DNA of 64,000 nucleotides from Ectocarpus siliculosus (Eukaryota; Sar; Phaeophyceae; Ectocarpales; Ectocarpaceae): NCBI GenBank assembly GCA_000310025.1, contig FN648327.1:102559-166558 (forward strand), in the 5' to 3' direction. The position numbers and the translations under genes were made by a program. Within the stretch, counting starts at the first letter, position 1. Each line of letters begins with the position of its first letter. This document shows positions 3,001-61,877 of the stretch, piece by piece. Under the pieces are notes generated by a model. That model made no database searches. It worked only from the letters and a program-made list of their open reading frames with translations, and was not told the origin of the DNA.

Positions 3001-3800
3001 CATGGTCAGCATTGTTTCTGGAAACCACAGAAGCATCAGGGTACTGCTGTAGGAAGGTGATGACTGAACTGCTTTTGAATCTCGATTTCACATCCAGATT
3101 CGCGTAAAAGAAAAATACAAGATGAAAAAACTCTCGTTTTGATTGGGTGAAAAGTTCTTCGGCCGGTCCACTCTAAAATCAACCACGTATCACTACTAGG
3201 CCTATCTGTCCATACTGCTGTGTACGATTCGGTGGATAGATGAATTAAGTGAACCACCAGATCTATCTGCCAAACAAAATGTGGAAACGAATCTCTACAG
3301 CTCACCGCGAACCGCGAACAACCCGAAAGCTCCGCCGGGTTGCCGGTTGCCACAGGTTGCTGTTGTGACGTGGCGATATCAAATGGGGAGCTACCCCTCT
3401 TCAGCAGCACACACCATTCGCGCGTTGTGTTTTACTCTCATGATGTGTGCATGTGATGTTCTGAATCGAGCCTCATCCGACCGAAAGCCACGAATTCGTC
3501 AGTCAGTACGTTTAAGCCCCCGAGAATATGTCCCACAGGCCTCCTGACTAACGCGTTCTCTTCAGCGCCAATCATCACGTGTGTCCAAGAACGATGCTGC
3601 GCGGTCACCCTTGGGTCGGTTTTGTGTGTTCTCTCCCTCTGTCTCTCCCTCTGCCTGCTCGGCGGTGTGCGATATGGTGTGGGTAGGGGTGCAGGGGTAA
3701 ATGGGCACACACGCCGTGCGTGCAAGTAAACAGCTTACATTAATAGCCAAAATTGGGTTCCGGTTCACTCAAGTCCGAGATTCGAATATATCGTTGTTCC
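1..3800. other. Gene-poor stretch, no supported gene
   Basis: I find no exon chain, conserved protein motif or RNA gene here. Short open frames occur on both strands but none looks like a known family or is bordered by convincing, phase-matched splice sites. The stretch opens with a GA microsatellite and is otherwise mixed-composition DNA with short poly-A and poly-T runs. Confidence 0.6.
17..95. repeat. GA-rich microsatellite
   Basis: An uninterrupted GA dinucleotide run passes into impure GGGA/GAGA purine repeats at the window edge. It is low-complexity DNA with no gene attached. Confidence 0.9.
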
Positions 3801-3954: not shown

Positions 3955-4320
3955 TCTCACTAAATAGAAAATATATCCAATGGACACCAAACCAATTTCG
4001 CTGTGTTCCCACCGCCCCAAGCTGCCGCATCGTCATTTGGCCTAACCCAAAGATAGAGATTCGCCCCAAGAACGTGACCCCAGCACCACGTCGTCGGCGG
4101 TGTCCTATGTACGCCATACGCCATGTTTACGACACGATGCGAAACGTTTCAAAAACATTTCCAATGGGCACGAAACTCAATGCGGTGTGTTTCCACGGCT
4201 CCCAGCTGTTGCGAAAGTCACCGTTTGACCCAAACTGACGCATGGTCGCCGATATTAATGTAGGCCCAGAGGCAAATGGTATTATTATTGTTGACGAAAG
4301 TGCCTCGGTGCCAACCATCA
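3955..4320 (-). repeat. Inverted relatives of the 187-bp tandem repeat
   Basis: The reverse complement of this stretch contains the words seen in the array at 7955-8480: a block like GGCCAAATGACG, then GACAGCTGGGG-like, GGGAACACA, GAAATTGGTTT and CCATTGGA. At least two diverged units can be recognised, near 3960-4060 and 4130-4260, in the opposite orientation to the main array. Coding potential is not apparent. Confidence 0.6.
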
Positions 4321-4530
4321 TCCAGACCAGCCATGAAATTCATTCATGGAGGATTTTCTGTGTCCGGAGTACCGGTATGAAACCGAGTCCTCACTCCTAC
4401 GTAGATGTTGCGTGAATGAACCGACCGGGCGTCGTCACCAAAAATCTGTTTCGTTGCAGCGTTCGACTTGGCTTCCTCTTCATCGAGGGAACCGATATGC
4501 ATCTGATACCAAAGCCTCTTCACTTTCACT

Positions 4531-5046
4531 GATGGCGAATCGGATGTGAAAATGCTGCGAAGAAACCTATACGCCGATCCAAGGGGAAATGATACAAATC
4601 GGTGAACAAATGAAAATTTGTTGTCGAAGACCGAACAAACTGTAGTTTATTGTGCGCGGAAGAATTCAGAACATCTCCCTGATCTACGTGTGTATTTGGG
4701 TTCTCGTTGTGCCGCCCTGGAGGCGCGTTGGTTCGGATGTCCTGGTTCGGTTTTCTGGGGTCCCAAAAAGAGAAAGGTCTTCGGAGTTCTCATTCTGCTG
4801 CCTCGCTGCTCCTGCGGCAAGAGTTTAATAGACGTTTGTCCACTGGACCCAGGGGCCACGTTGTGAGAAAGACACAATGTGTACCATGCAGCCCGCTTTG
4901 TAGGGTCATGCGGCAGAGAAGGGCAGCAGCTAGCTACATCGAAATCTGGACGATAGCTAGCAATCATGTCGTGGCTTTTCTCTCACTGGGCTGAGGGACG
5001 AGGGCGGGATGGTGATGAAGCATGCTTGGCCGGAGCGCACTGCCGC
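4531..5046 (+). repeat. Dispersed repeat family, copy 1 (uninterrupted)
   Basis: From about 4611 this segment matches copies at 6176-6860 and 59298-59728 along most of its length (shared words include GTAGTTTATTGTGC, GGAAGAATTC, CCGCCCTGGAGGCG, GGTTTTCTGGGGTCC and CAGCAGCTAGCTACATCGA). The preceding 4531-4610 (GGCGAATCGGATGTGAAAAT, CCGATCCAAGGGGAAATGATA) matches the sequence directly after copy 2 at 6853-6930, so the duplicated unit is larger than one copy. Open frames through it (4618-4866) recur in the other copies but show no known domain. This copy keeps the intact TTTGTAGGGTC site that is interrupted in copy 2. Confidence 0.75.
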
Positions 5047-6175
5047 GTAGGGGACTGCTACTACTCTGGAACCCAACACCCCGTGTGGTATTCGCTTTCG
5101 TATCAAACCCCATCATGGGTTGGTAGAATCACTCATCTCATGACAGCAGTACTGCCACCGTGTGAGCGGTGCAACTCCGACCTACCGTATATGCAATTTC
5201 GGATGTATCCATACGACGCCGCCACATGAGATCACACAACAAGCGCCTTTGCCCGTAGTCTACTCAACCAGCTGCCGTGCGTGGTGCTATTTGTACGAGG
5301 ATTGTGCGGGAGGTACTTCTCGTCTGCCTCGCCAACGCGCGGTTTCTGCAATCGTACCACAGGACAAGCAGCAACTCTATCTATGTTGCACATATGTATT
5401 GTACACTCATCGAGAGGCCCCTTTGTACGGGAGTGCGTGTACTGCAGTCGCCCGCGGCTATGCGTAATCTACCCTCAACCGAACACACTAAATGTGATAG
5501 AACGCCCGAAGACCTCAAAGATACAAGAGGGAATCAAGCAAGTCCATGAAAACCAACAAACTGCGCGGGCCTATGGCGATCAAGAAGGGCAAGACAAGCG
5601 ACACTCAGCGCTTCCTACAGTAAGTGCCCCACAGTTGTTCATCGCCAATCGGTACTGCACGCCACCACCGAGAGACAGACTGGGGTCTCTCCGAGGTAGC
5701 GCTCGCCGGTGTGCTTCTTAGTGGAGGACCTCTCTGAGTCCTCCGGTTTGGGGTCATTTAGGCGGGCGGGGCGGCACGAAGCCCAACGGCTGAGCTGTGC
5801 CATTCCGTTTCGCGGTCAAATTTCACACAGGGTGTGTATCGTACCAGTTCTGTACTGATAATATAAGCGTATTGTGCCACATCGGACCACCCGACGGGTT
5901 ATACTGTTGTCTCCCGAAGCAGTTATCGCACGACTTCGAATTGGGTGTTTTCTGAATGGTAGCGTACCATTGGGAGGCTCAATCGTCCGAGACTGCTACA
6001 GTACAACAGTTTCGTCCCGTCTGGTGGTATTCGGAGGGAGCTTTGTGTTTAGTAGCAGAGACACGTTAGGATACCGCGGAGGCTTTGTGCCGTGCAGGAC
6101 GTGTGGTACGGGGGAAGCCTCCCTCCGTAGGCCACAGAAAATATTAATCAAGGCAATTCGAAAGAAAAACAATAA
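5047..6175. other. Intergenic between two repeat copies
   Basis: No gene supported. One frame near 5521-5620 reads a short hydrophilic stretch ending at a GTAAGT donor-like site, but no partner exon was found. Confidence 0.45.
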
Positions 6176-6454
6176 AGTGAAAGTTTGTTGTCGAAGACCG
6201 AACAAACTGTAGTTTATTGTGCACGGAAGAATTCGGAACATCTCCCTGATCTACGTGTGTATTTGGGTTCTCGTTGTGCCGCCCTGGAGGCGCGTTGGTT
6301 CGGATGTCTTGGTTCGGTTTTCTGGGGTCCCAAAAAGAGAAAGGTCTTACGGAGTTCTCATTCTACTGCCTCGAGTTTGATAGACGCTTGTCCACTGGAC
6401 CCACGGGCCACGTTGTGAGAAAGACACGATGTGTACCATGCAGCCCGCTTTGTA

Positions 6455-6779
6455 CACAGGTGGACGTCCACCCCCCTCCCCAAAATGTCGGATGCCCTCG
6501 CCCCCTTGTGGAGACCTTGACAAGGTCGAACACCTTGGAGAAGACAACCAAGGCCTCGAAAGGGGAGAAATCGAGGTATTTTTGAGGNNNNNNNNNNNNN
6601 NNNNNNNNNNNNNNNNNNNNNNNNNNNNNNNNNNNNNNNNNNNNNNNNNNNNNNNNNNNNNNNNNNNNNNNNNNNNNNNNNNNNNNNGCCGCGCGACGCC
6701 GTGGAGACCTCGTCAAGGTCTCCACAAGGGGGCGAGGGAATCCGACATATGGGGGAAGGGGGGTCGACCTCCACCTGTG
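6455..6779. mobile_element. Non-autonomous TIR transposon nested in a repeat, TA target duplication
   Basis: The ends are inverted copies of about 73 bp. The left end begins CACAGGTGGACGTCCACCCC and the right end, read on the other strand, begins CACAGGTGGAGGTCGACCCC; both continue through a shared GTCGGAT..CCCTCGCCCCCTTGTGG block. TA lies on each side (6453-6454 and 6780-6781), and the uninterrupted copy at 4.6-5.0 kb has a single TA at the same place (TTTGTAGGGTC). This is a clean insertion with a TA duplication, as made by Tc1/mariner-type and related DDE transposases. The centre is an assembly gap, so true length and any internal gene are unknown. Confidence 0.8.
6588..6687. other. Assembly gap (100 N)
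   Basis: A run of exactly 100 N inside the TIR element. The size is probably a placeholder; long inverted repeats on both sides would explain the failed assembly. Confidence 0.95.
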
Positions 6780-6930
6780 TAGGGTCACGCGGTAGAGAAG
6801 GGCAGCAGCTAGCTACATCGATATTTAGACAATAGCTAGAAATCATGTCGTGGATGGCGAATCGGATGTGAAAATTCCGCGAAACCGATATGCCGATCCA
6901 AGGGGAAATGATACCGATCAGTGAACAATT

Positions 6931-7954
6931 AGGGCTTCATGGAAACGGGTCTGACAAATTTCACTACATTTGTCCATGCCATTCACAGTAGATTCGGCGA
7001 TATTCAAAGAAATACCCTACATCTGCACCAACTCGTGACAGGCAACGAGAATAACGTAGTCAACCCACCTCTTGCGCTCAAGCACAAATGCCTTTCTCCG
7101 AAACCTATGCACCGTCCGAAGCAGTTTCCGACCCGCACACTCTTGCTGACGGTGGTCCGCGGCGGCGTTTCGGTCGCTCACAACCTCCGGCGCGTTCAGT
7201 GAACGGGTGTTGGCCTTCCACCCTCCACCCTCGTACATGCCTTCTGCTTGTGGACATTGGTGGTTGCGCGTTTCCCTCACCCCGGTAGACAATTGAGTCT
7301 ACGTAGATCTCAAAAACGAAGGCGTCAAACAATTTCACATTTCATGCTGCTGTGACCCTTGATCGTGGCCTCGGGAAACACGCCTGAGTTGGTGGAGGTC
7401 AAGGGCAGCCATCAAAAACAAAGGGATCAGGAAGCTTGGATATCCGTTCCTTGCACCTCATCGGACCGGGGTGGTTATCGGCGATGGCATGCGTACCCCC
7501 TCGCGGTTTCGAGGGCAGCCTGTCGTTGGGCCCTCGTTCAGCCAAGGGCATAGTAGTGAGGGTTCGAGTTCTTCGTAGACATGCGCCTCGCCATTTTCGC
7601 TACCGCTGCTGCTGTGCTGTTCTTTGCCGACATATCTTTGGTACGCAGCAGGTGGAGAGGTGGGTGGAGAGGTGGGCGCGGACGAAGTTGCACGGAACAG
7701 TCAACGCTTGCGCCCCCAACTCCTTCCGCCACCTGAGTGAGTTCACGCTCGCATCTCCGTAGTCGGGGTCATTCCGCAACACGTATTGACCTCTGGGTGC
7801 TGTGCGCTGGCCAAAGTGCTGACCAAGATGCTGACCAACGTGCTTAGGGGTTCCATTCCTTTGTATGCAGAGATGGAGATGGTCTTCTGGGTGGATTCTG
7901 CAGTATGCCCTCGATATGCCTTCGTACGAAAGGCAACTTGTAGTCACACCCTTG
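6931..7954. other. Intergenic, no supported gene
   Basis: Several overlapping short frames on both strands, none with a recognisable domain or phase-matched splice borders. Confidence 0.5.
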
Positions 7955-32424: not shown

Positions 32425-35400
32425 TCATCGAAACGAGAGCATCGCCTGCGCCGCCATGGTTCGCCTCTGGTCGTCCGCCACCACCGGTATAGACACGCCC
32501 CGGGGTTGCTGATCCTCCCCGCCTTCCGCTCCGGCGGCGCTCTCCTCTCCCTTCTGCCCCCCCGCAGCGACACCGCCAGTACCAGCCGCGGCCATCACCG
32601 CGCACTCCCCGTTGCTCCCGCCGCCGCCGTTCGCGAGGGCGGCGATGGCCGCTGCTACGATGTCGCCGTGGGCCACTACCGGTCCTGGCGGCAGCGACGC
32701 CTTGGGAGAACGGGGGGCGCCGCCTGCGTCAGCCGGGGACGGAACGGCGACGTCGCCGCCCTCAGCGGCGGCGGCAGCGGCAGCCACCGCCGCCGCCTGC
32801 TGCCCGCCCTCCTCCCCGACGCACACCTCTTCTTCCTCCGCCACCTCTCGGCCCTGCTCAGCGAGGGGGCTGTCCCTGCCGTTGCGTCTCTTGCTCCTGC
32901 GAACGATGCCGTGCTCGGCTCCAGCGGTGGCAACGCTCAAGCCGGGCGAAGCGGTACAAGCAGCGGTGGCCGCTGCTGTGGCTGTGGCCGTGGCGGTAGC
33001 CGCAGCCGCAGCGACCGTTCCCGAAATTGCCGTTTTTCTCTCCGGTTGTTGTACTACCCCGTAATCGGCTGACGGAGCTACAGGGGTCGGCAACACCGGT
33101 GCTGCCATGACCTCTGCAGGCTGGCGCGGTTCGACCTTCTCCCTCGTCACGACGCCGGCCCCGACACCGCTGACCCCTGAAACCAACGCAGAACCGTTGC
33201 ACGCGTTCCCGTTGTTGTTGGCGTGAGCTAGGGGGGGCGGGTCGACGGCCACCGCAGTCGGGACGCTCTGGCCGTTTTTCGCTGCATCCCCGACCTCCCG
33301 GTCGTCCGCAACTCCCCTAGAAACTGTCCCGGTGCAACCGGTCGCCGCCGCGGCCGGAGCGGCAGCGGTAGCAGTAGAAGCAGCAGCGGCAGCAGCGGCG
33401 GCGGTGTTGGTGGCGGAGGCAACGTTCCCGGACGGATCGTGTTGCGGCACGTCCACCGCCGCGCCTTGCACGCACCCCCCAGCCCCGTTTTGGGTTGCCT
33501 GAAGATTGTCGCTAGCGATCGGGTAGCCGGGCCCAGCGGTCATATCCCTTCTTTCCGGCAGTTGGCTGGCGCCGGCTTCGATCTGCGACGGTTGCGCTTG
33601 TTCCGCCGTCACGCCCAGCTCGTGCGACCGCCACCCTTCGATGAACCCCGCCGCATTATTCTCCCCAACCCCTGCCACCGACACCGCCACCGCTGCTGTT
33701 GTTGCAGCCCCGTCCGCACTGTTTCGCTCGCCGCCGCTGTGCAACGGCCGGGAGTCGTCTTCGCAGGCCGCCGCCGCTACCCCAACGCCTGACGACGCCG
33801 CTGCTGACGTGCAAACCCCGTCTCTCGCCGGCGGCGAAGGAGACCCTAGGCCGAGACTCACACCGGTGACCCGAGTAACCGCACAACGTTCAACTGCCAA
33901 CGTGTCCCCGTTTGGACCCGGCCACGCTATTGGTTGCTGCTCCCGGGACACCACCACCGCTGCCTGCGTTACCTCCGACTCCCCAAGCGTGGCAGCAGCA
34001 CTAGCAGCAGCCGGAGCAGCAGCAGCAGCAGGAGCAGGAGCAGGAGGAGCAACAGCAGCAAGAGCAGGAGCAGCAACAACAGGAACAGCAACAGCAGGAG
34101 CAGCAGGAGCAGCAGGAGCAGCAGGAGCAACACCAATAGCAGCGGAGGCTCCCTCCCCACACCCCGGCAGAGGCGCGCCTCCGTTCGTGTCCGCGATGAT
34201 CGTGCCGTCGACCTGACTGTTTGGTACCGGTGGTTGAGGTTGGAGCTGCTGCGGGTGCGGGTGCGGCGGCGAAGGCTCGTCGACGCAAGCGGTGGCGGTG
34301 GCCGCAATTGCGGCGGTAGCTTCAGCCACCGCCACCCTCCCCGCCTCCGCCGCTGCTGCCGCCGCTGCTGCTGTAGCCGTTGCCATCGGTACAACCCGCC
34401 CCGCGATTTCCGAAGCTTGTCCTGAGCACGTGTTCGCCCCTCCCTCTTGGCAAGCTGCCGCCGCTGGTGCTGCCTTGTCCCCCTGCTGTGCCATCGGCGT
34501 CGACCCGCCCCCCGTCTGAGCAGTGTTTTCGCCGGCAACCCCGGCAGCAACCGCCGCCACCGTCACCGCCGCCGGTGCTGTTGCTGCCGCATCCACAGGG
34601 ACGGCACCGGCCGCATGCACCACAACAGCCGGCTGGGATGGTGACGGAGGGAGGGTAGAATCTAAGCGGCCCTGGCCGACCATGACTACGCCATTCGTAG
34701 GCTGTGGTCGCTGCTGATGCTGGCTGTTGCAGTCAGAGAACACGTCATGCATGCTGCGGATTTTAATCTCCAGCCTGCGCTTTTGGTCTTCCAAGATGGT
34801 GCGCATCTCTACGAGGTGTTCCGCAATGCCTTCTCCGGTGACCTGCGCGAACAGACGGCGAATTCCACGACAAGAGGGGGGGGGTCAGAAACGATTTCCT
34901 CAAAAAAGACCGCGAAGGTCTACCAAAGAATGGTCCAGAGAGAACAGCCACGTACAGATGGCGGGGAGACCGGTCACATCACCGCCTCCACCGGCGGCCT
35001 TCACCCACATCACCGCACGATTCGAGGCACTCGCCCACTCTTTTACCTAACCTTTTCACAAGAGACACAACTGACACCACAACGACACCGGGAGCGACGG
35101 ACGGTACATACTGCTCGGCCAGACTAACCTGATCGAGCATCTTCATCTCCTCCACGCTCAGCACACGCATGTGCAGCTGCCGCAGCACCGCCGCCCCCGA
35201 CGTCATGGGGTACCCCATCTCGCGTTGCTGTGCCCCCCCCCCCCGCCGCTCGCCATCCAGGCTCGTCGACTTCCGCCGGCGCGGTTGGACCTTCACGGCG
35301 CCCTTCTCGCTGCCGCCGCCTGCCCCCGTCCCCGCCCCAACAATGCCATTGCCGCCGCCACCGCCCGATCGCGTGTCGCGGGAGAGAGCGTCACTGCTCA

Positions 35401-38400
35401 CGGCCCCCGTGGTTTGCTGTTGCCTCTGGTCTTCCGCGGTAACGCCCTCGGGTTGGGGCGTGGCGTGCATCGACTCGACCTGCAACATGAGCCGGGGCGC
35501 CCCGGGAAAAAAAATGCGATGAGAGCGCTGACACACGGGAGGCGCGCGTATCCTGGCTATTTTCCAGGCATCGATTGGTTTGCAGCACATGTGCACGGTA
35601 CACCGCACACAGACACACACGCGTTGAAAACATCACCACCCGCGTGGCCTATCCAGTTCATTGGGCAAACACAGCAAGGCATGAACGAACTACTGCCGCC
35701 GCTTACGGGAAAAACACGGGTAAGCGTTCGTCGCACGCAGCCTCGCGAACCTGGGGGGAAACCCCCAACATTGATTTCCATGCCGCGCGTGCCGTGCGGC
35801 CTCACCTTTCTCTTCGACCGTCGAACCGGAGCGGTGGAAACGCCCCCGCCCGCTCCCAAGGTCGACGGAGCGACCGGCGGGGCCCGGTGGTGCAACCTTG
35901 GCCTGCTGTAGTCGTTCTCGACCGCCGGTTTTGGTCGCTTAGAACCGGCCGAACGCCCCCCTCTCCCCCTCCCCCTGGCCCTGCCGCCGCCCCGCCCCCC
36001 TCGCGCTCTGCCATTCAACGTCTCCTTGCCGGCCGCCGCCCGGCCGCCGCGCCCGCCGGAGGAGCCCGGCGTCGCCGAAGCAGAAACGGCGACGGCGTCA
36101 TCGTTGCCGCCGCCTCCGCCCGCTTCCGCGTCGATGCTGTCCCGTCTTCTCTTGAACTTGCGCCCGTCCACCACGACGTCCTCCGGCTGAGGCTTCTTTC
36201 TCAGGTTGTTCGGCCTCCTGGTGGCATCTTCGGCTGCCGCCGCCGCAGAGTCGGGCGCCGCGGAGGGCGCTAACATCGTCGCCCTACCGGGCGGCAACGG
36301 ATGCCCCTGAGGCTCTACTGCCGCCGCCGGTGCCGCCGCCGGTGCCGTTACTGCTGCCGTACCCCCGTCCTCGTGAGCCCGTTTTCGTTGTCGAACGTTG
36401 GGTCTATCCATCGACGACGACGACGACTCAGCAGCGGCGGCGGCGGCCACGCCACCGCTATCCGCCGCCGCGAATTGTGCCGGACCCCGCCCTGCGGGCG
36501 CAACCGACGAGATCGACGCGGCGGCCACCCGCACTGCTGCAAAGGAAGGCGAAGAGGAAGATTGCGACATGGACGAGCATGCCGACAGCGGAACGGCCCC
36601 AGCAGTGGCCGCGGCCGCGGCCGCAGCGGTAACCGCACCCGTCCCCGCCGCCGCCGTGTGCACCGCCGCTGCCGCCGCCGCCGTCATTGCACCAAGCTCA
36701 TCGATCCGTTTCTTCTTTCTTCTGCCTTCCTCTGGCGTGTCCGAAGCCGCCGTCCCCGCCATCGCTTCAGGAGAAGCGCCTCCTCTGCCGCCCCTGCCGC
36801 CGCCTACGCCGTCACCGCCGCCGTTGGCGGCCGCCTTCGCCCCAGAACAATCCCCCCTCGTCCTGCTCCCGCCCGAACGTCCTCGCCCCTGGAGATCTGG
36901 CGGGCGGTCCATTCGAGCCTTACGGGGAGACATTGATGACTCGCTCGCGGGCGCAGGCCCGGCGGTCCCGCCGGCCCTCGGCGCCCTCCCCGCCCTTGGG
37001 GCGCTCGGAGGCCGGCTCGAGCGCGACCGGGCGGCGGCGGCGGCGGTGTCCCCGCTCCACTCGCCCCCGCCGGCGGCCGCGTGCTTCTCAGCCGGGGGGG
37101 GGCCTCTCCCAGGCCGAGAGGGGGAACCGGTTTCCTGCTTGTTCTGACTGCTGCCGTCTAGGGAATCCGGTGGTCGAGGAGTGACGGCGGCAACGGCGCC
37201 GCCGCCCGGGGCCGACGCCCCCGCTGCACCGTTCGCAGCAGCAGCAGCAGAGACAAGAGCCGCTCCACCGGCCGACGTCCTCACCGTCCCCGGCGCAGCT
37301 GCTGGTGCCGCCGCCGGTGCTCCGTCCTTCGTCACGAGACCCGCCGGGTCTGCCTTCCTTGCCGCGGGGTGCACCCAGCCCCTCTTCCCCAACGGCGAGT
37401 TTGGGTCGTTCAACGCTGCCTCCTTCGCAGCCGCCGCAGCCGCCGCAGCCTCCTTCGCCGCGGCCGCCGCGGCCGCCGCGGCGGCGGCGGAGCCGGTGGA
37501 GGCGGGGGTTCGCGCGTTGCTGTGCGATGTAGCGTTGGGTGATGCCGGCCACGGCGGCTGTGGTGGGCCGCGTGCGTGTGTGCACAGGACCGCGCAGAAT
37601 CCCAGGGGAACGTGGCGGCTATGCTAAGGGTGCTAAATGTGNNNNNNNNNNNNNNNNNNNNNNNNNNNNNNNNNNNNNNNNNNNNNNNNNNNNNNNNNNN
37701 NNNNNNNNNNNNNNNNNNNNNNNNNNNNNNNNNNNNNNNNNGCGTTTCGCGGGGTCGCCGGCTTCCCGGCCCCCTTGCCGCCGCCGCGCCCCTTCCCGCC
37801 ACCCAGAGCATCGAAACCCTTTGCCTTGCAGGTGTCGCAGTACCACTTGCCCTTGGGCACTTCGGTGAGCGGGGGGTCGAGGCAGTACGTGTGGTACTCG
37901 TCGTCGCAGTGCTCGCAGAGCAGGGCGAGCTCGGGGTCCTGCTTGCCGTAGCACTTCCGGCACGAGCAGAGCGGGCACATCATCACCTCGTCGTCGTCCT
38001 GGCAGAAGGCGCAAGCGGCGGTGTTAGCCCCACGCCCGCCGGTCCCTCCTCCCCCTCCTCCCGCGGCTCGCCCGGCCGCTTCTCGACGGCCCCCGACCCC
38101 GGCGACGCCTCCGGCGACGCCTCCGGCGCCACCAGTGCCGTCCGACGCGCCGGGCTCGGACCCGTCAGTCGGCTGTATGCTCAGGGCTCCGGGGGCGGCG
38201 ACAGTACCAGCAGCTGCGACGGACATCGCGGTGCAGCGCGCGCGGTGTCGGGGGCGAGTGAGAACGACGAAGCTGTGGTTCGAACTCGACGTCAGCGGAC
38301 TTTCATGCAACAGACAAGATGAGGTGAGCACTGATAGGAGTCCGTGAAACAACGTGTTACATATGCATATACGCAAGGAGCACTTCTATCCAACCCGTCT

Positions 38401-40713
38401 GCGTAAATAAAAAATGTTGCACACACTAACAGGTATGTACAGCACGCATGATATCAACAACGCCTGAGCCCGCAAAGGTTACAACGCGACAGTGATTCCT
38501 CCATCCCATGCTAAAGCGTGAATCACGTCGAGCCTCCCACTTCCACAACTCGGGAAATGGACGCCCCCCATACTCTCGCCCTCTCTGCCTCAGACACACT
38601 CACACTCGTGACCCTGAGAGCTGTAAAATCCTGTTCCTTTCTTCCCCCGCTGGCACTGACATATTTCCATTGGCTTGCCGCGAAATAGCGAAGTTCATGT
38701 AAAACCGTAGCATGAACCCCCCCCCCCCACACACACACACACATATACACGTCGTACGGTCTATGACCTTCAACCGTGACACAAAGCAACATGCGCGAAC
38801 CTGTCTTGGGCGGTGCCTGCGCGCTCTCCGGAAAGTTCAGCTTGGCCTTGGTGCCATCCGTGGCCTTCACGTGCCGGTCGTAGCACCTCGCCGCCTCGTC
38901 GGCGGAGGCGAACTTCCCCAGCGTAAGCCACTCCTTCGTGCCGTGCTTGTCGAAGTGGGTCACCACAAACATGTTGTTGGCCCAGTGGACTCCCCGATAT
39001 CTCAGTGCCTGAAAAAAAACAGAGCCACCATGCGCGACGGGAGCGGGAAAAGAGGCGGCGGCGGCGGTGGGACAACACGGCAGGAGGCACGCAGCGCAAA
39101 AATGAAAAAATACAATCGCAACCCCAAAAGAGAATTGCACAATATCTACCGCAAAACGGAAGCACGTCACATACGACGAACAACCGTAAGCGCGGAGAAA
39201 GCGTGAGGGGGGGGGGGGGGTTGCATCGGATAAAAAAAAAATGCCTTAAAACTTGCGGTATCTGTAGCGGGAAGGGGCACATCAAATAAACTCTCCTGTT
39301 GCCAATAAAGTGCTGAGGGATGAAGGGATGACACCATATGTGCCCCGCAAACCCGGCCGCCGCACACTACCGCAAGCGCCTAGCTTTCCAAAGTACGCTG
39401 TCCTAGCGGGCGAACGGCGCATTGCCTTCCCAGAGAGGGTTGTTTCTGAAGATAATTGGCGACAATAAAAGAGGCAGACAGCTCTCCAAATAGGGGAGCA
39501 CTACTATATTTCTAGGTCAAGGTCTTCCCGGCCTAGCGCTCAATAGGTGGCATGACTCGAGTACCACGTTGCATGCGGCAAGATGGCGCAAGAGCGCCAA
39601 CAAAAACGGTCTGGCGCGGAAGAAACCACACAGCAGTGTAGTACAACACGGACAGCAGTACAAGAAGTGTTTCACAACTATCCAAGCGGAAAACAGAGTG
39701 AAAACCGGACGGCATCGCATCGCACCGCCTCGCATCGCTTCGAGCGGAACCTTACCTTCTGCTTCTCGTCGACAAGCGTGTCGCCCCTCGTCTCCGGCAT
39801 ATACATGTTTTGAACCCTTCGCATAGCCGCCACGTTCCGCTGGGCTTCTGCGCGGTCCTCTGCACACACGCACGCGGCCCACAACAGCCGCCGTCGCCGG
39901 CATCACCCAACGCACATAGCACAGAAAAGAAAGAAACCCAAGCAGACAAGATTACGTCGTCGGTGACAAGCGGATCCGAGGTGACACATATTTCAGGACA
40001 TTCTGCCTATTTTATAGTCTCTGTGTGTGTGCTATGTTGGAACAGTTCTCGAAGCCTGCGCGTCACCTCCCTGCACTTCTTCACAGGTCCATGGCAGCGT
40101 AAATTACACTCGTGGTATATACCTAATGCCGCTCCAAACAGGGTGCCAGGGTGCAGTCACTCACGGCAGGCATAGCAATACGAAACAACGAGGCACCTCC
40201 CCCGTCTCCCGACGACGCCTCCTCACGATTTGCACCCGGTGTTGGGGTGTCACTCAAGCGCACGCGCCCCGGGCTCTTATTGAACTACGCATAACAGCAC
40301 AAAAACACAAGCTCACACTGACAGCACCAACGGACCGACAGAACAAGACCGCCCACACACAAAACACGTCACGTCAAAGGTGCGTACGCTCTGGGTGTCA
40401 CTCTCCCAAACAAGACTACCGAGAAAAAACGAAAGGCGGTAAGGCCTTGCGGGCGATCAAAAGCTCCCGCTGATCCGTAGGAACAACAACAACAACAACA
40501 ACAACGGTCCTGCGCAGGTCAGTGATCACCCGAAAACAGCGTACCAGGTGGGACGTGAGTGCTGTCCGCCACGCAGAACTGGCAGTTCCAGTCTCCCGCA
40601 GGCACCTCCTTGAGCTCCGGACGGTGGCACTTGGTGTGGAACACCAACGAGCACGTGTCGCAGCACAGCAGGTCGCCCCCGTGCGAGCACACCTCGCACA
40701 GATCGTTGTGGTC
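32425..40713 (-). CDS. PHD finger - AP2/ERF-like - UHRF1-type PHD nuclear protein, 5' end unresolved
   Basis: A probable chromatin or transcription regulator. Minus-strand exons: 40713-40545 (PHD1, [34 protein letters not shown], a full C4HC3 finger); 39859-39756 (charged linker); 39008-38801 (AP2/ERF-like, [34 protein letters not shown]); 38213 to the gap at 37742 (second PHD); about 37530-35806; 35479-35108; 34842-32425 (stop TGA). Phases agree at every junction outside the gap. The second PHD carries extra upstream cysteines ([15 protein letters not shown], then [25 protein letters not shown]), the arrangement of UHRF1 PHD fingers, which read the unmodified histone H3 tail. The C-terminal part (>1500 residues) is Ala/Gly/Pro-rich with basic NLS-like clusters (KRPKP, RRSKRK) and a short coiled-coil-like segment encoded at the start of the last exon. 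The start codon was not found; the ORF at 43288-42815 may supply it. Confidence 0.78.
33990..34140. repeat. AGCAGG/AGCAGC-rich repeat inside the last PHD-gene exon
   Basis: Imperfect AGCAGC/AGCAGG units encode the Ala/Pro/Val-rich tract of the minus-strand protein. Frames on both strands stay open through the region, so the shadow ORFs here are not genes. Confidence 0.75.
37524..37641 (+). repeat. Inverted copy of the PHD-gene linker exon, next to a gap
   Basis: Read on the plus strand this matches the minus-strand sequence 39921-39800, which holds the linker exon ([12 protein letters not shown]) and its upstream intron border. The copy reads [12 protein letters not shown] with about 10-15% base differences. 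It ends at the assembly gap and points opposite to the gene around it. Confidence 0.8.
37642..37741. other. Assembly gap (100 N) inside the PHD gene
   Basis: A 100-N gap removes the 3' end of the second PHD exon and the sequence up to the next exon. Coding sequence is probably missing. Confidence 0.95.
40482..40505 (+). repeat. CAA microsatellite
   Basis: A short run of CAA units in the intron 3' of the first PHD exon. Confidence 0.85.
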
Positions 40714-42814: not shown

Positions 42815-43288
42815 CTACTCTGCCTTTATGCTGCATTTGCTTGCCTCTTTCCACTCGATCTGGATCCCTGGCGCAGCCTCTAGCCCGGCGCCGCCGTCTC
42901 CAAGCCCCCCCCCGCCGCTCAACTTCTCCTCCCCTCCCACCGCAGACGATCCCCTCAGGCTCCTCTGCCTCTTGCTGTCGTTCCTCGACTTCACCCCGTC
43001 CGCGAAGGCCTGGTCCAGCCGGAGCTCCTCCCTGAGCGACTGGAGCACGCCCCTGTGCGAGTCCCTGATGCCTCCGGGCTGAGCGGCGAACGCGGTGTAG
43101 AGCGTTTCGTACGCCGCCCGCGACGCGGCCGCGTGTCGAGTTACGCTTTGGTCCACCCGATCCATACGCCCCGCCGGCGTGCGTTGCACCGAGGTCGCCC
43201 TTTCGAGCTTGACCCCCTCCCTGGCTTCGTGAAATTCGGGGCCCTCTCTCGGATCTCTAAAACGTCTAAGAAGCAGAGGCCAAAGCAA
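42815..43288 (-). CDS. Hypothetical basic, helix-rich protein or 5' exon of the PHD gene
   Basis: An open frame of 157 codons from an ATG at 43288 to a TAG at 42815. The middle (RMDRVDQSVTRHAAASRAAY, then LQSLREELRLDQAFADGVK) looks helical and charged, followed by a KRQR basic cluster and a Gly-rich tail. I do not recognise the family. It may be a complete small gene divergent from the eL43 gene. Alternatively it is the first exon of the PHD gene, because a GTGGGAG donor after the SLRGSSA residues lies in phase 0, the phase that the PHD1 exon at 40713 requires. The composition looks coding, unlike the flanks. Confidence 0.45.
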   Translation of the reverse strand: MLWPLLLRRFRDPREGPEFHEAREGVKLERATSVQRTPAGRMDRVDQSVTRHAAASRAAYETLYTAFAAQPGGIRDSHRGVLQSLREELRLDQAFADGVKSRNDSKRQRSLRGSSAVGGEEKLSGGGGLGDGGAGLEAAPGIQIEWKEASKCSIKAE

Positions 43289-51570: not shown

Positions 51571-54528
51571 CGCTGACGTTTCCAAATGCCCCCACTGCTG
51601 TACGTTGCACTTGACCCACCCTGCCGCTCAAACCTTCCAGCCACCAGAGCAATTCGAGTGGAGTGACACCTCGCCAGCATTCGTGGCGGCCATGAGAGCG
51701 ATGACCACAACAGAGTTGTTGCGGTGTCTGGCAGAGCTCAAGGTGCCCGCCGCTGACAAGCTTCGAGAGCAGCTGGAGGAAGCGAGGGAGCTCCAATCGG
51801 CATGTCGTAGAGCCTTAAAGGATGCCGCAATCCAAGGGCGAACCAAAGAGGGAAGGAGAACGTTCCAGACGTTTGCTCACGGCTGTTGCGTACGATGGAG
51901 ACGGGCCTTCGAAGGTGACAGCCAAGCGCAAGTCCGAGATCTTTGGCGTTCACCCAGAGCACCTCGTCGTCGCCCGACGGCGGGTGACAGCGCTGAGGCC
52001 TGAGCTCCCTCCACTTCAGGCAATCGACGAGAAGGCGTACTACTTCCACTCCCGGACCAAGAGGAGCGACGCAACCCCTCCAGAAATGCTGGAGCTCATG
52101 GGAACATTCTGGCACACCGACGAGGTATCTCGTGCATCGGGGAACTCCAAGGACATCTGGCGGGAATCCAAGTCGCCCAGTGCGAAAGGACACCCTCGTC
52201 GGCAGCTCATCGTGGAGGGACAGGGTGAGGCAGTCTACGAAAAGTTCTTGGTGTGGCCAGGTTGGATCAACTTCAAGAGGGTCTGGAAGGAGGAGAACGG
52301 CGAGGTCCTGGCGGACCCCGGCCGCACTCTGTTCCTCTCGACGCGGTGCAGGTGCTTGACTTCCCCGAAGACAGACCAGTGCGCGTGCAAGATCCACACG
52401 CAGCAAACTTATTACCTGGCTGCGCTTCGTGAGGTTGACGTGCAGGGGCGTGACGCGTGCAACTGTCGGTGGTGCAGCGTGGAGAATGGAGGCTCCGAGT
52501 GGAAGAAGATGTGGTCGAACCTTGGGTCTTTCTCGGAAGCCATCGCGTGCCCAAAGGTTGACCTGCGAGCTGGGGACCCCGACGCCACGGGTGAGTTCAT
52601 GGGGCGGAAGCCGGAATGCGGTTCTTCGGACTGTGAGGTCTGTGGGTTCGGGCGGGAGGGGGGCATTCCCACGTGCAAGGCACTGGAGGAGTCTCAGCAG
52701 CTGGTGGAGTGGACGCGCTACGAAGATCTAGACAGGGAGGGGAAGAAACCGCTGCCGAACCAACTAGTGACCAAGGAGGGCAAGCTCTGCGATCTTTGGA
52801 GGGATTTCAAGCAGCACAGCAAGGTGTACATGGATCACCACACGAAGGCCATGTGGGGGAGGAACTGCCACAGGGAGGACATGTACACGTTCCCAAACGG
52901 CGACCTGGTTATTGAGGTGGACTTCATCGAGAAGTTCGAACATGTCCCTCCATCCGTTCTGACGTGTGCGAGACACGAATCGACCACCCTCATGGTCGCA
53001 GTGGTACACTTCAGCCCGCAAGTGTTGGAAGGCGGCGGCAGGGTGCACCTCACCGAGACATGGATCTTTGCTTCCGAAGACCCTCGCCACGACTTCGACT
53101 TCCACCTCCATGGGATGCGTCAAATCGCCGATCACTACCTTGACGGAGACGGAAGCGCAGCAACTGCGGCCGCTCGAGAGGAGAAGCGGACGCCCCGCAT
53201 GCACATTTTCACGGACGGCTGCGCCAAGCAATACAAGGGCAAGCGGAACTTTCGGTTTCTGTCAAACAGCGTGCGGCAGCTCGGCTACATCGTCGAGCAC
53301 CATTTCGCGGTTACGTCTCACTTCAAAGGCAGCCACGACGGCATCGGCGCCATAGCCAAGGGTGCCATGAAGAGAGAGATGCTCAGGCCAGGGGGTAAGC
53401 TCATCACCGGCGCGGCCGGCGTGGTGAACTTCTTGGCCGAGTACTTCAAGAGCATCGGAGACAGGACGCTAGCTGACTTCTTCGCCTCGTGGACGCCGTA
53501 TCGCATTCGACGTGTGTATGTGAAGCTCGTCGGACCAACGGAGATCTAATCGGCCGGAGCCGGTCCTGAAGGGGATTAAAGGTACGCGGGACACTTACGT
53601 CTTCATCGGGGCGAACACGGCGAGAGACGCTTCCACTACCACCGGGCTCAGCGGAAACTCACGCATTCCAGACGTCATGAAGAAGGATTGGGAGTTGGCG
53701 AGGGGAACGGAGACGGGGAAGGTGGCGGGAACGGAAATGGTTGTGCTCACGGCGAGGAAGGTTGGGGAGGAGGAAGAGGGCAGCGTGCCCGAAGAGGGAG
53801 GGGCGGGGGGTGCAGGGGGCGGGGCGGGCGGCACCAGGAAGGGTAAGAGGAAGCGTTCAGGGAGGCAAGGCGCCCTCCGTGGCGAGCAAGAAGAGGAGGG
53901 GCGGGCGGCAGAGGCGGGGGGCGGTTCTGACGGCATCAGGAGGAGCAAGAGGACGACCGCAGTGAGTGTGAGGCATATCGCCCTCCTTGGCGGGAACTTG
54001 AAGGGCGGGGGCGGGGGGGCTAGAGCGAGCAGCGAGGAAGAGTCGTCGGAGGAGTCCGAAGAGGAAGAAAGTTCCGAGAATGAGGAGGACGACGAGGACG
54101 ACAAGGACGACGAGCACGACGAGGGGGAGGGGGAGGGGGAGGGGGAGGAAGAGGAGGGCGGGGAGGAGGGGGGGGAGGAAGGTCCCACTCTGGCGAAAGA
54201 GACGGTTTGTGTCGAGAAGGTGGTTCTCCGGCACAAACTGCACACCGGTTCGGCCTCTTGTTTTTGCTCTGCCTGTCGCGTGCATGAGTACGAGCGGTGC
54301 TATACCAGGAGCAAGTACCCGGCCTGCGGCACGAAGCTCGAAGAGCAGGTAGTAGAGGAGACAGTCATCATGGTCACTGGTGTAGATCCTGTGGTTGGGG
54401 TGGATCCTGTGGTCGGGAGCAAAAAGAAGGCGAAGAAAATTGTTTTCCGGAAGGGGGCGACCACCTGCCAGATGGACAGGGTTACCGGTACACAGTTTGG
54501 GGTCTCATTCTGCGGTAGCAGCAAGTAG
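51571..54528 (+). pseudogene. Transposase-derived RNase H-like gene with two frame changes
   Basis: Three frames carry one apparent protein: 51572 to about 51870 (Zn-like CPHC, then a helical region), 51822-53549 (575-codon frame) and about 53545-54528. The main frame has Cys clusters (CRCLTSPKTDQCAC, CNCRWC, CEVCGFG), then VIEVDFIEKFEH (Asp367 of this frame), FTDGCAKQYKGKRNF (Asp465) and TSHFKGSHDGIGA. That order resembles a widespread family of uncharacterised, probably transposase-derived proteins with an RNase H-like fold; I infer this from memory of such motifs. At 53547 the frame stops, while the +1 frame continues LKGIKGTRDTYVFIG and later an acidic Glu/Asp tract and a Cys-rich end. 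A similar frame change lies near 51,830-51,900. It is either a decayed element or has sequence errors. No terminal repeats were found. Confidence 0.55.
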
Positions 54529-57183: not shown

Positions 57184-60100
57184 ATGTCGCGTTTTGTGTG
57201 GTTGGTGTTGGCTTTGGGCTGTACCCCGGGGGCAAGGGCGGCGTCGGCCGGGGCTTCACACAGCTGCGTCGTTCTGGTGGGCGGCAAAATCAAGGTATTT
57301 GCTTTGATTCGATTGCGGGTGGCTCTTGTTTGCACGCGAAACCCAGAGCTTGTTCGTACGTACGTGTGGTCATTATTAGTTTGTTGCATTGCCAGGCATA
57401 CATATGAGTTGATCCGCTTTCATCCACCAGCATGCCGCCTTCCACCTTGTCTCCCGAACTCCATCCTTTCTTGCGATATCCGCCGGCATTGTCTCTCTTT
57501 GTTGTAAAGTGCTGGGGTGAGAATTACTGGGGCCAGGTAGGCCAGAACGACAACCTCGTCCGTGGAGATGACGCCTCCGACATGGGCGACAGTCTCCCGT
57601 ATGTTCCCTTGGGGGAATTCGAAGCCAGCTTGGTCGCCTCTGGGAGCGAGTTCAGCTGCGCCCTCGCCGTCGACGGGGCCGTCAAGTGCTGGGGCCGCAA
57701 CAGCTCCGGCCAGCTAGGCTTGGGCGACAATGAGACGAGGGGTGGGCAGGACGACGCGTTCGAGATGGGGGACAACCTACCCGTGCTTGACCTGGGCACC
57801 GGCGTCGCCGTGGAAAGCATCGCCCTCGCGGGCTCGCACGCATGTGCTGTACTCGCCGACGGGAACTTGAAGTGCTGGGGGGAGAACGAGGGAGGACAGC
57901 TAGGTCTGGGAGACACGTTGACCAGAGGGAACGCCATGGGCCAAATGGGAGACAACCTCCCGTTTGTGGACTTAGGGGACGAAGTGCTTGTATCATCGGT
58001 TGCTCTAGGGGCGAGACACACGTGCGCGGTAGTCGGGGACGGCGACGTGAAATGCTGGGGTGAGATAACGCCTTTTGGCTTGCAGCAGCGAAGAAGGAAG
58101 GTGGAACATAACAAGTGTTGTTTCCGTGTGGTCCTTGCTCGTGTGCGACCCTGGCTGGAGGGCGAAAACATAGTATATTATATCGAGAGGAGTGCCAATG
58201 AGCTCAAGATTGTACGGTAACACACACATCGGCAAATTTGTTTTTGTTTTTTGCCAGCATCCGCGTACTGTGCCTCCCCGGTGATGCTTGACTGTTGTTG
58301 CGGCCGGTTGCAGGCTGGAAGAAAGACAGTTGGTGACATCGTTGTCAGTTTTTGTGGTGGTGTTCGCGCTGTGCATGTTTTGCGTGGACAACACCCGTGC
58401 CTGGAAAGCAATTCGATGTCTTTCTGTGCCGTATTTTCGCACGCCAGGTAATAACGACGGTGGCCAGCTGGGTTACGAGGATACGGCTGCGAGGGGCATC
58501 GCTGTCGGTCAGATGGGGGACTTGCTACCTGCGGTGGACCTTGGAACGAAGCAGAGGGCAATCGCAGTTGCGGCCGGATTCTTCCACACCTGTGCCCTGC
58601 TTTACACGGGTGACATCAAGTGCTGGGGTGAGTTGATGAACTGCATGTGCGATGCCCATCCAGAAAAAGATATGGCCCGTCCATCGATACTGTCGACCGA
58701 CACTGTCAGCGTTGATATACAGTAGGTGGCCCGATATAGTGGCATGTAGGGGCAAGGGGAGAATATGCCACTATTCAGGTCAGGGCCATCTTTCGATATA
58801 TCGGGTGTATTTTTATAGATTGTGACAACAGATTTAGATTTTACGCCACTATATCGGCAGTTCCACATTTCAAGTTGCCACTGTATCGGGCCAACTACTG
58901 TACAGCGCCCGCTACTTTCGCGGGTGCATCCGCGGAAGCCTGTCGCGTGCGACGGGAGCTCCCGCGAAAGTCGTAATGATGGAAGTGCGGAATAGAGGAA
59001 TGTGGAAAGCCGGGGTTAACGGCAATTGAACCGGTGGAGCCAGAAAGATTACAATGGGTGAGCCACGACACTCTCCAGAACGTAGGCCAAAAATCGTGTG
59101 AACAACACGAATGGTCGAATGGTGGGGGTAAAACCTCTGTTGTTATTCTCGTCAAGACGCGTTGTTAGCAGGTACAACGTCGTCCGAGGTAAAGAAACCA
59201 CGAGAGAAGAGGGAACGTCGGCACGACCGTTGCCAACGATCAGAGCTAAAAGCACCAACACCTGGACGGCTACCGCAATCACATGTGTTGCAGAAAAATG
59301 AAAGTTTGCTGTCTTAGACAGAACATACTGTAGTTTATTGTGCACGGAAGAATTCGGAACATCTCCCAGATCAACGTATGTAGTTGGGTTCTTGTTGGGC
59401 CGCCCTGGAGGCGTGTTGGTTCGGATGTCTTGGTTCGGTTTTCTGGGGTCCGAAACAGAGAAAGGTCTCACGGAGTTCTCATTCTGCTGCCTCGCTGCTC
59501 CTGCAGCAAGATTTTGATGGACGCGTGTCCACTGGACCCGAGGCCCACATGTTGACGAATGTACAGTGTGTGACATGCAGCCCGTGTCGGAGGGTCACGC
59601 GGCATTGGAGGGCAGCAGCTAGCTACATCGAAGTTCGGACCTAGCTAGCAGACATTCGTAGTTTTTCTCGAGGGGTTGCGGGACGAGGGCAGGATGGTGA
59701 TGGAGCACGCTCGGCTGGAGCGCCCAGCCGAGGAACTGTTCACCGTCATCTTGTGATGCATGCAGAGGCGATGCACGATGTGACAACGAAAGGGTTCGTA
59801 TGCATCCGTGCGTGCAGGTTTTGGATCAAATGGTCAGCTAGGGCAAGGCAGCAATGCCTCAATCGGGAACGCCGTCGATAGCATGGGCGACAACTTTGGG
59901 CCTGTAGATCTCGGCGCTGACCGAACGGCCATCGCCGTGTCCCTGGGGGGGACTCACTCATGTGCAGGTTTGCCCGTTTGTTGTTGTTGTTGAGATTTCG
60001 GTTCTTCTTGTTTTGTTTTGTTTTCCTCTTCCCGTTGCTTTACCAACGCCGCGAGGAAACAATCGCGTGTCTCGTCAGTGATTCTCGTTTCTATGAAAAC

Positions 60101-61877
60101 ACGCGAGCGAGCGGCTGTCTCGTTGCCGGTTCTGTCAGGAAGGCTCCCTCTGTCTGTTTGCCATTGCAAAGGGTTATTTCACCACAACCCACTTGTCTAA
60201 CCCCCTGCCCCCCCACCCCCGCTTGCACATGCTGTAGCGTTAGACGATAGCACGGTGAAATGCTGGGGCGGCAACTCAGTGGGGTCACTGGGACTCGGCG
60301 ACTCGCTGAACCGTGGATTGGGCCCGGGCGAGATGGGCGACAACCTTCCGACCGTAGGCCTATCCTTCGGTCCTGGTCTTGGAGCGGCCTCCAACGTTTT
60401 CGCCGGGAGATTTCACACCTGCGTCTCCGGAGCAGAAGGGGGTTTGGCGTGCTTTGGTCTCAACGCAGGAGGGCAGCTGGGATCGGGGAGTGATGAAACC
60501 AATATCGGGGATGAACCCGGAGAAGTCAAGGAGTTAACCTCGATCGATTTGGGGGCGGGCGAGGTTGTGTCCGTCCCAGACGCACCGGGCTTGGGCGTGG
60601 CGTTAGAAGGTCAGACAAGCCCCCCACATGGAAGTGATGCTGGTCGTGAGGTTGTCAATGTCGTATGTATCTCCGAGCTGTGAGGTTTTATGGAGCACAA
60701 AGAACAGTAAGTGGTAGGGTTCCCTCATGCTTTCGGTCTCATTGGTGCCACGTTACTCTCCGCCGTCTGGTCAAAAGGTGGGGGGTATCGCCCTTCCAGA
60801 CAGGGAGCTCTGAAAGCTTCATGGGCTTACACAGGGGCCAATTTAGCACTTTCGAAGACATGTATTATAGTTGCCTGCTCGGCAGCAGACTACCATTTTC
60901 TCGGGATGCCGTACAAAACTTTTGGGTTGTTTGTTCTCAACCGAACGCCCCTAGGCAGCTACACTTGCGGCATCCCTCGACACACGCAAGCGGATCGCGC
61001 GTGGCCGAAGAGAGCGAAACCTGGCAGACGGGGTGAAAGCCATCCGTCCACCGATGGCCGTGTTCATGTGGTGCGCCTTGCATGTCTGATTTCCGGGCCT
61101 CCGGCGAGAGGAGCGCGCTGTGCATGCTCTCCCGGGGTCCTCCATTGATACTTGGTCCCCTATCGATTGATGAGAGGCCAATGAACTGTTGCGAATACGC
61201 CACAGCGACAGGCGATGGTGACAGCGAAGGAGCAGGCGATACTTTTAGTTCGAGCACGGTGATCGCTCTCGCAAGCGCAGCCGCCTTGGTGTTTGCCCTT
61301 GTGGCTGGGGCATTGCTGTGGTGCTTGTGCCGACGCAAGCGGCAGCAACGAACGCCCTCCACGGCCGCTGCGGCGGCTGGCGACAACATCGAGGGTGCCA
61401 CGGGGAACGCGGAAGCCTCAGCACAACCTCGGGACGCAGGTGAGAATGAATAATGTATCGCCTCCGTTGGGCGAAGGTTCACTATGTCATTCTGATGGCG
61501 TGTGCAACCTACGCATCCGTCGTCGACCTCTGGTGGGCCCCGACCACCCCGCGGTTGCTGGGGGCTGGGGGCTTTGGCTGATATTGGACAAAAGTTGTTT
61601 CCGGATAGTAGTCTCTCCTGCGGTGCTTCGATGGGTCATGCTTCGGTACCCGGCTTGAGACTCTAACGAACCAACTGCTTCCTCAATATCCGCAGGCGAG
61701 ACCGGAGGCGGCTCGACATCGGGTGACGGAGGAAGCGATTCTGCTCATCCGACACAAGATATAGCCGCGGCGCGTGCGACATCGTCTACCGGGCCTTTGC
61801 GTCCTTCTCCTCCTCCCGAGAGCGGAGACTCCGAGAATAGGCCTGGCGGTGAAGACCCAACTCCACATCATCAGTAG
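57184..61877 (+). CDS. Type I membrane protein with RCC1-like KCWG repeats
   Basis: Exons: 57184-57294, 57510-58059, 58448-58627, 59818-59967, 60238-60609, 61206-61439, 61696-61877; all phases agree, 592 aa. Residues 1 to about 20 form a signal peptide (FVWLVLALGCTPGARA). Then come about seven RCC1-like repeats, each marked by KCWG (or ACFG), a GQLG-type turn and often a MGDNLP..DLG linker: KIKCWGENYWGQVG, AVKCWGRNSSGQLG, LKCWGENEGGQLG, then KCWG-NNDGGQLG, KCWG-FGSNGQLG, VKCWGGNSVGSLG and ACFGLNAGGQLG. A hydrophobic helix (VIALASAAALVFALVAGALL, about 473-496) is followed by CRRKRQQR and a Ser/Pro/Asp-rich cytosolic tail. Topology predicts an extracellular beta-propeller, perhaps a receptor or cell-wall protein. 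It is not the nuclear Ran exchange factor RCC1. The junction at 60609/61206 rests on phase only. Confidence 0.85.
58720..58900. mobile_element. 181-bp pogo/Tigger-like MITE in RCC1-gene intron 3
   Basis: The left end reads CAGTAGGTGGCCCGATATAG and the right end, reversed, CAGTAGTTGGCCCGATACAG; both continue TGGCA. TA flanks each side (58718-58719 and 58901-58902). CAG-starting ends with TA duplications are typical of pogo/Tigger-like elements. No coding capacity. Confidence 0.8.
59298..59728 (+). repeat. Dispersed repeat family, copy 3, in RCC1-gene intron 3
   Basis: Matches copy 1 (4.6-5.05 kb) and copy 2 (6.18-6.86 kb), about 53 kb away, through GTAGTTTATTGTGCACGG, GGTTTTCTGGGGTCC, CAGCAGCTAGCTACATCGA and GGGACGAGGGC.GGATGGTGA. 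It is in the same orientation as the RCC1-like gene. Confidence 0.75.

Follow-up and report, generated by a model that had tools for sequence, protein, structure and literature searches.

A gene that probably encodes a large nuclear protein associated with chromatin was recognized on the minus strand of the window, a 64,000-nucleotide stretch of Ectocarpus siliculosus DNA (contig FN648327.1), between about 43.2 and 32.4 kb. We give roughly a two-in-three probability to this reading, in which one gene of a PHD-AP2 family specifies a multivalent protein. The proposed domain order is, provisionally, ENT-like helices, then a PHD finger of the CHD4/AIRE type (PHD1), a linker, an AP2-like domain, a UHRF1-type PHD finger (PHD2), an assembly gap, a basic low-complexity region and a helical tail. 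PHD1, the charged linker, the AP2-like domain and PHD2 were all present where an earlier note, made from the DNA alone, had placed them, and all lie on the minus strand in phase-compatible exons (Table 1). The ENT-like exon, the downstream exons, an inverted copy of the linker and two paralogous PHD-AP2 loci were found in addition.

Table 1. Features of the PHD-AP2 gene in the window and its two paralogous loci (positions in the window unless a contig is named; a slash marks the splice junction)
Feature	Position	Strand	Details
Exon 1	42845-43165	minus	ATG at 43165; donor GAG/GCAAGC (GC-AG); phase 0 out; GC3 0.84
ENT/EMSY-N-like helical segment	~43010-43117	minus	within exon 1
Exon 2	40545-40713	minus	PHD finger 1, C4HC3, 40573-40698, CHD4/AIRE type; phase 1 out
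Exon 3	39756-39859	minus	charged linker; phase 0 out
Exon 4	38801-39008	minus	AP2/ERF-like domain, ~38829-39002; phase 1 out
Exon 5	37742-38330	minus	Gly/Ala-rich stretch, then UHRF1-type pre-PHD knuckle and PHD, 37828-38013; 3' end lost in gap
Assembly gap	37642-37741		100 N, length nominal
Inverted partial copy of exon 3 and upstream intron flank	37532-37637	plus	~92%; ends at gap
Probable downstream exon	35806-37518	minus	rich in Ala and basic, with patches of the RGRGRGG type; uncertain 5' boundary; donor AAG/GTGAGG
Probable downstream exon	35129-35479	minus	coding stretch
Probable last exon	32425-34842	minus	charged, probably helical stretch, then low-complexity tail and stop
Second PHD-AP2 gene	C26 near 1.988 Mb (1986000-1992000, ~2140-3220 within)	minus	UHRF1-like PHD, then directly AP2-like domain
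Third PHD-AP2 gene	C2 near 5.814-5.818 Mb (5810000-5818000, ~4030-7700 within)	plus	PHD split over three exons, then AP2-like

A divergent AP2-like domain

By sequence, profile and predicted-fold tests, exon 4 belongs to the AP2/ERF superfamily. All five matches returned by phmmer from the PDB were AP2/ERF proteins (E 8e-6 to 0.38), and the shuffle z scores of the exon were 17 against ERF096 and 15 against AtERF1. An independent profile, built without the exon from four plant AP2 domains and one AP2 of the same genome that is unlinked to a PHD finger, gave it 33.8 bits, compared with 10.0 bits for the best of 2000 shuffles. The single-sequence AF2 model (pLDDT 72) had a strand-strand-strand-helix arrangement, and its top Foldseek match was the AtERF1-DNA complex 1gcc (probability 0.99, E 5e-3). 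The structural support is moderate, because AP2 structures did not stand out for this model in VIA-align; the HIV reverse transcriptase rows that it returned (Z 5-6) were judged to reflect a common sheet-helix arrangement.

The Pfam profile PF00847 gave no hit on exon 4 at E<=10 and none in a whole-genome search, and the same tool found the positive controls AtERF1 (61 bits) and TEM1 (35 bits). The domain is therefore named AP2-like, as a divergent relative and not a Pfam-grade member. An AP2 profile search had been proposed as a possible refuter of the domain assignment; with PF00847 it indeed came back empty, while the independent profile, phmmer and the fold tests spoke for the assignment. 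NCBIfam and PHROGs searches added nothing firm. A match to phrog_99, an HNH endonuclease (E 0.021), covers a stretch that fits a part of an AP2 and was likewise not firm. No relative of the exon was found in viral contigs.

It is unlikely, though it deserves serious weight, that exon 4 is coding but no longer binds DNA and instead has a structural or protein-interaction role between the two PHD fingers. The Pfam miss is in keeping with such a loss, whereas an AP2 of the same genome that is unlinked to a PHD (contig C457) scores 28 bits with PF00847, for which reason the PHD-linked AP2 domains look like a divergent set. The partial retention of the DNA-contact residues of AtERF1 is also in keeping with a loss of DNA binding: R147, W154, W172 and Y186 are kept in the alignment, with W154 and W172 uncertain on account of gaps, and others are absent. 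However, the core fold motifs YRGV, LGKF, EAARCYD and KLNFP are all kept, and it is a DNA complex, that of AtERF1, which best matches the predicted fold.

Two PHD fingers of different classes

Both PHD fingers score above the PF00628 cutoff (E 9.5e-9 for PHD1, 9.3e-11 for PHD2) and possess the C4HC3 ligands, the set in PHD1 being complete. The nearest PDB relatives of PHD1 were CHD4, PHF12, AIRE and TRIM33, and the alignments contain a GGDLLCC core and an aspartate two residues before the first cysteine (C1-2). The best PDB matches of PHD2 were all UHRF1 (6vfo, 1.6e-17), and the likeness includes the C-x2-C...C-x2-C pre-PHD zinc knuckle. Both the complete first finger and the extra cysteines of UHRF1 in the second had been described in the earlier note, and both were confirmed. 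Of the two aspartates with which UHRF1 contacts H3R2, PHD2 retains one and carries a glutamate in place of the other, D334.

The PHD fingers of CHD4, AIRE and TRIM proteins are readers of H3K4me0, and that of UHRF1 reads unmodified H3R2. Since PHD1 has the core and the aspartate at C1-2, and PHD2 has UHRF1-like residues, these features suggest that both fingers prefer the unmodified H3 N-terminus. The proposal that the protein reads two histone states is not supported by the residues of either finger.

PHD-AP2 genes elsewhere in the genome

The gene in the window belongs to a small PHD-AP2 family and does not stand alone, because the combination of PHD and AP2 recurs at at least two other loci of the 189 Mb of genome searched, one on contig C26 and one on contig C2. 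In the C26 gene, what seems to be the first exon (MEKPPSSSRP...) contains the PHD finger, and the AP2-like domain is split over two exons (SKYTGVYW...SYHSEK, then EAAGAYDAEAKRVFGDTHPALNFP). The C2 gene contains an AP2-like domain and, in addition, parts of another. The splice joins of both genes were made by eye. With a profile that excluded them, the C26 AP2 scored 34.0 bits and the C2 AP2s scored 37.1 and 30.5 bits.

PHD1 is identical to the C2 PHD at 29 of 50 positions (58%), and PHD2 to the C26 PHD, its only relative found in the genome, at 23 of 49 (47%). Thus, the gene in the window combines both PHD classes. No second copy of its AP2-like domain or of exon 1 was found in the genome, and in the 10 kb examined, the three AP2 genes on contigs C479, C17 and C457 lacked a convincing PHD.

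Two further observations were made in the course of the genome searches. On contig C3 (4966500-4972500, ~1800-2650 within), a PHD of the PHD1 type is accompanied by a SANT-like stretch, recognized by eye, and no AP2 was found there. The genome also contains many light-harvesting protein genes, one of which best matches fucoxanthin-chlorophyll a/c proteins, as would fit the stramenopile origin given in the earlier note; on contigs C92, C232 and C488 such genes (PF00504) form clusters with equal scores and are apparently intronless.

Gene structure and the assembly gap

Exons 2 to 5 are joined at GT-AG sites with matching phases (phase 1 from exon 2 to 3, phase 0 from 3 to 4 and phase 1 from 4 to 5). 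The earlier note had counted three phase-matched exons between 37742 and 40713; the phase match held, and the number of exons in that span is four. The conceptual translation of exons 1 to 5 comprises 463 residues with no stop, and GC3 is 0.76-0.88 in the exons. The gene extends past this span on both sides, with an upstream first exon and, it is likely, same-strand downstream exons that continue past the gap to 32425.

The ATG of exon 1 is the sole in-frame ATG within its open frame, and to join exon 2 it must use the GC donor and span an intron of 2.1 kb. The exon matched the ENT family PF03735 at E 0.0012-0.007 (19.3 bits, below the gathering cutoff of 28.5), and its predicted structure consists of two helices with pLDDT over 90. 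Because of this sub-threshold score, and because Foldseek and VIA-align had no EMSY structure among the matches listed for the model, the label is kept at 'ENT-like'. A phmmer search of the PDB matched exon 1 to a helical repeat protein of artificial design (9e-5 for the entire chain, with no single stretch reaching significance); this match was attributed to helix composition, as were weaker unrelated ones.

The exons of PHD1, the AP2-like domain and PHD2 are predicted to lie on a single transcript. The competing arrangement has two adjacent genes on the same strand, namely one with the order (ENT-like)-PHD-AP2 and another, with the UHRF1-type PHD, that runs from an ATG at 38226 through the gap to 32.4 kb. 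Exon 5 could begin such a gene because this in-frame ATG is its own and is followed by a low-complexity N-terminus, and because the UHRF-like PHD of C26 seems to lie near the start of its gene; the coding signal upstream of the ATG is also weaker (GC3 0.71, GC1 0.51). Exon 4, however, has to splice onward to a downstream exon, since its read-through has a GC3 of 0.54 and bears CA and G repeats, no stop being reached before the microsatellite stretch. A usable donor is present, and coding sequence resumes with exon 5, which offers a phase-matched acceptor (ctcctatcag/TG) in an open frame. Two separate genes are on this evidence improbable, and the single gene is preferred.

Beyond the gap, the three downstream stretches can be spliced together in phase 0, and the last of them runs to a stop; no Pfam family was found in the parts scanned. 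They are likely to be part of the same gene, and their link to exon 5 is one that we infer, because the gap hides it. The inverted copy beside the gap pairs with 39808-39913 on the minus strand and has an open frame; only these two copies were found in the genome. The gap and this copy at the 3' edge might also hint at a false fusion by chance juxtaposition or an assembly join, but this is highly improbable given that exons 1 to 5 all lie on a single gap-free stretch and that PHD and AP2 occur together at the two other loci, on large contigs.

Elsewhere in the window, fragments of RCC1-repeat proteins were found on the plus strand at 57408-58217 (PF13540, 1e-23) and ~60201-60683, and a 576-aa open frame at 51819-53546 (plus strand), with no Pfam family, is possibly related to transposons.

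Proposed function

If the single-gene reading holds, the two PHD fingers would bind the unmodified H3 N-terminus at K4me0 and R2me0, and the AP2-like domain would contact DNA. The protein might thereby tether a regulatory complex or partners to promoters that lack H3K4/R2 methylation. The earlier suggestion that one protein joins DNA binding to histone reading is favoured by domain homology and by the recurrence at C26 and C2; 'sequence-specific' binding goes too far for a divergent AP2 with part of the AtERF1 contacts. More tentatively, and with somewhat less than an even chance, these genes may form a family of chromatin regulators, specific to the lineage, that carry an AP2 DNA-binding fold within multi-PHD readers, so that one polypeptide could check both the DNA and the unmodified H3 tail; by analogy with C26, the gap after PHD2 could then hide a further AP2.

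Comparison with known systems

No named PHD+AP2 family was found in the literature searched, in agreement with the earlier note. AP2-domain proteins of Ectocarpus (PMC12629598, PMC4108028) and AP2-EREBP in Nannochloropsis have been reported, and the available portions of these reports do not mention a link to PHD fingers. Since PF00847 does not detect the AP2 domains linked to PHD fingers, the number of AP2 domains counted in genomes of this kind is probably an underestimate.

The AP2-like domain shares the AP2 motifs and the predicted three-strand and helix arrangement with plant AP2/ERF factors (AtERF1, 1gcc; ERF096, 5wx9), but it is divergent, falls below PF00847 and is embedded between PHD fingers. 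PHD2 shares the knuckle and PHD spacing with UHRF1 and UHRF2, whereas the exons scanned with Pfam had no recognized UBL, TTD, SRA or RING domain (the gap may hide sequence). Similarly, PHD1 has the core and the acidic residue before Cys1 of the CHD4, AIRE, BHC80 and TRIM24-33 fingers, and the exons scanned had no recognized chromodomain, helicase, SAND or bromodomain. Exon 1 resembles the ENT-domain proteins EMSY and EML only by its weak match; it differs in scoring below the cutoff, in the absence of a detected Agenet domain and in a two-helix prediction without an ENT structural match.

A parallel in arrangement is the apicomplexan GCN5 complex, which in Plasmodium contains the multi-PHD proteins PfPHD1 and PfPHD2 and the factor AP2-LT as separate subunits (PMC8396726). 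Multi-PHD readers and an AP2 factor are joined in one chromatin machine in both cases; in the complex they meet as separate subunits, whereas in the window they appear in cis, in one gene. If this is correct, AP2 and PHD readers in a single protein would tie DNA sequence directly to the state of the histones in this algal lineage.
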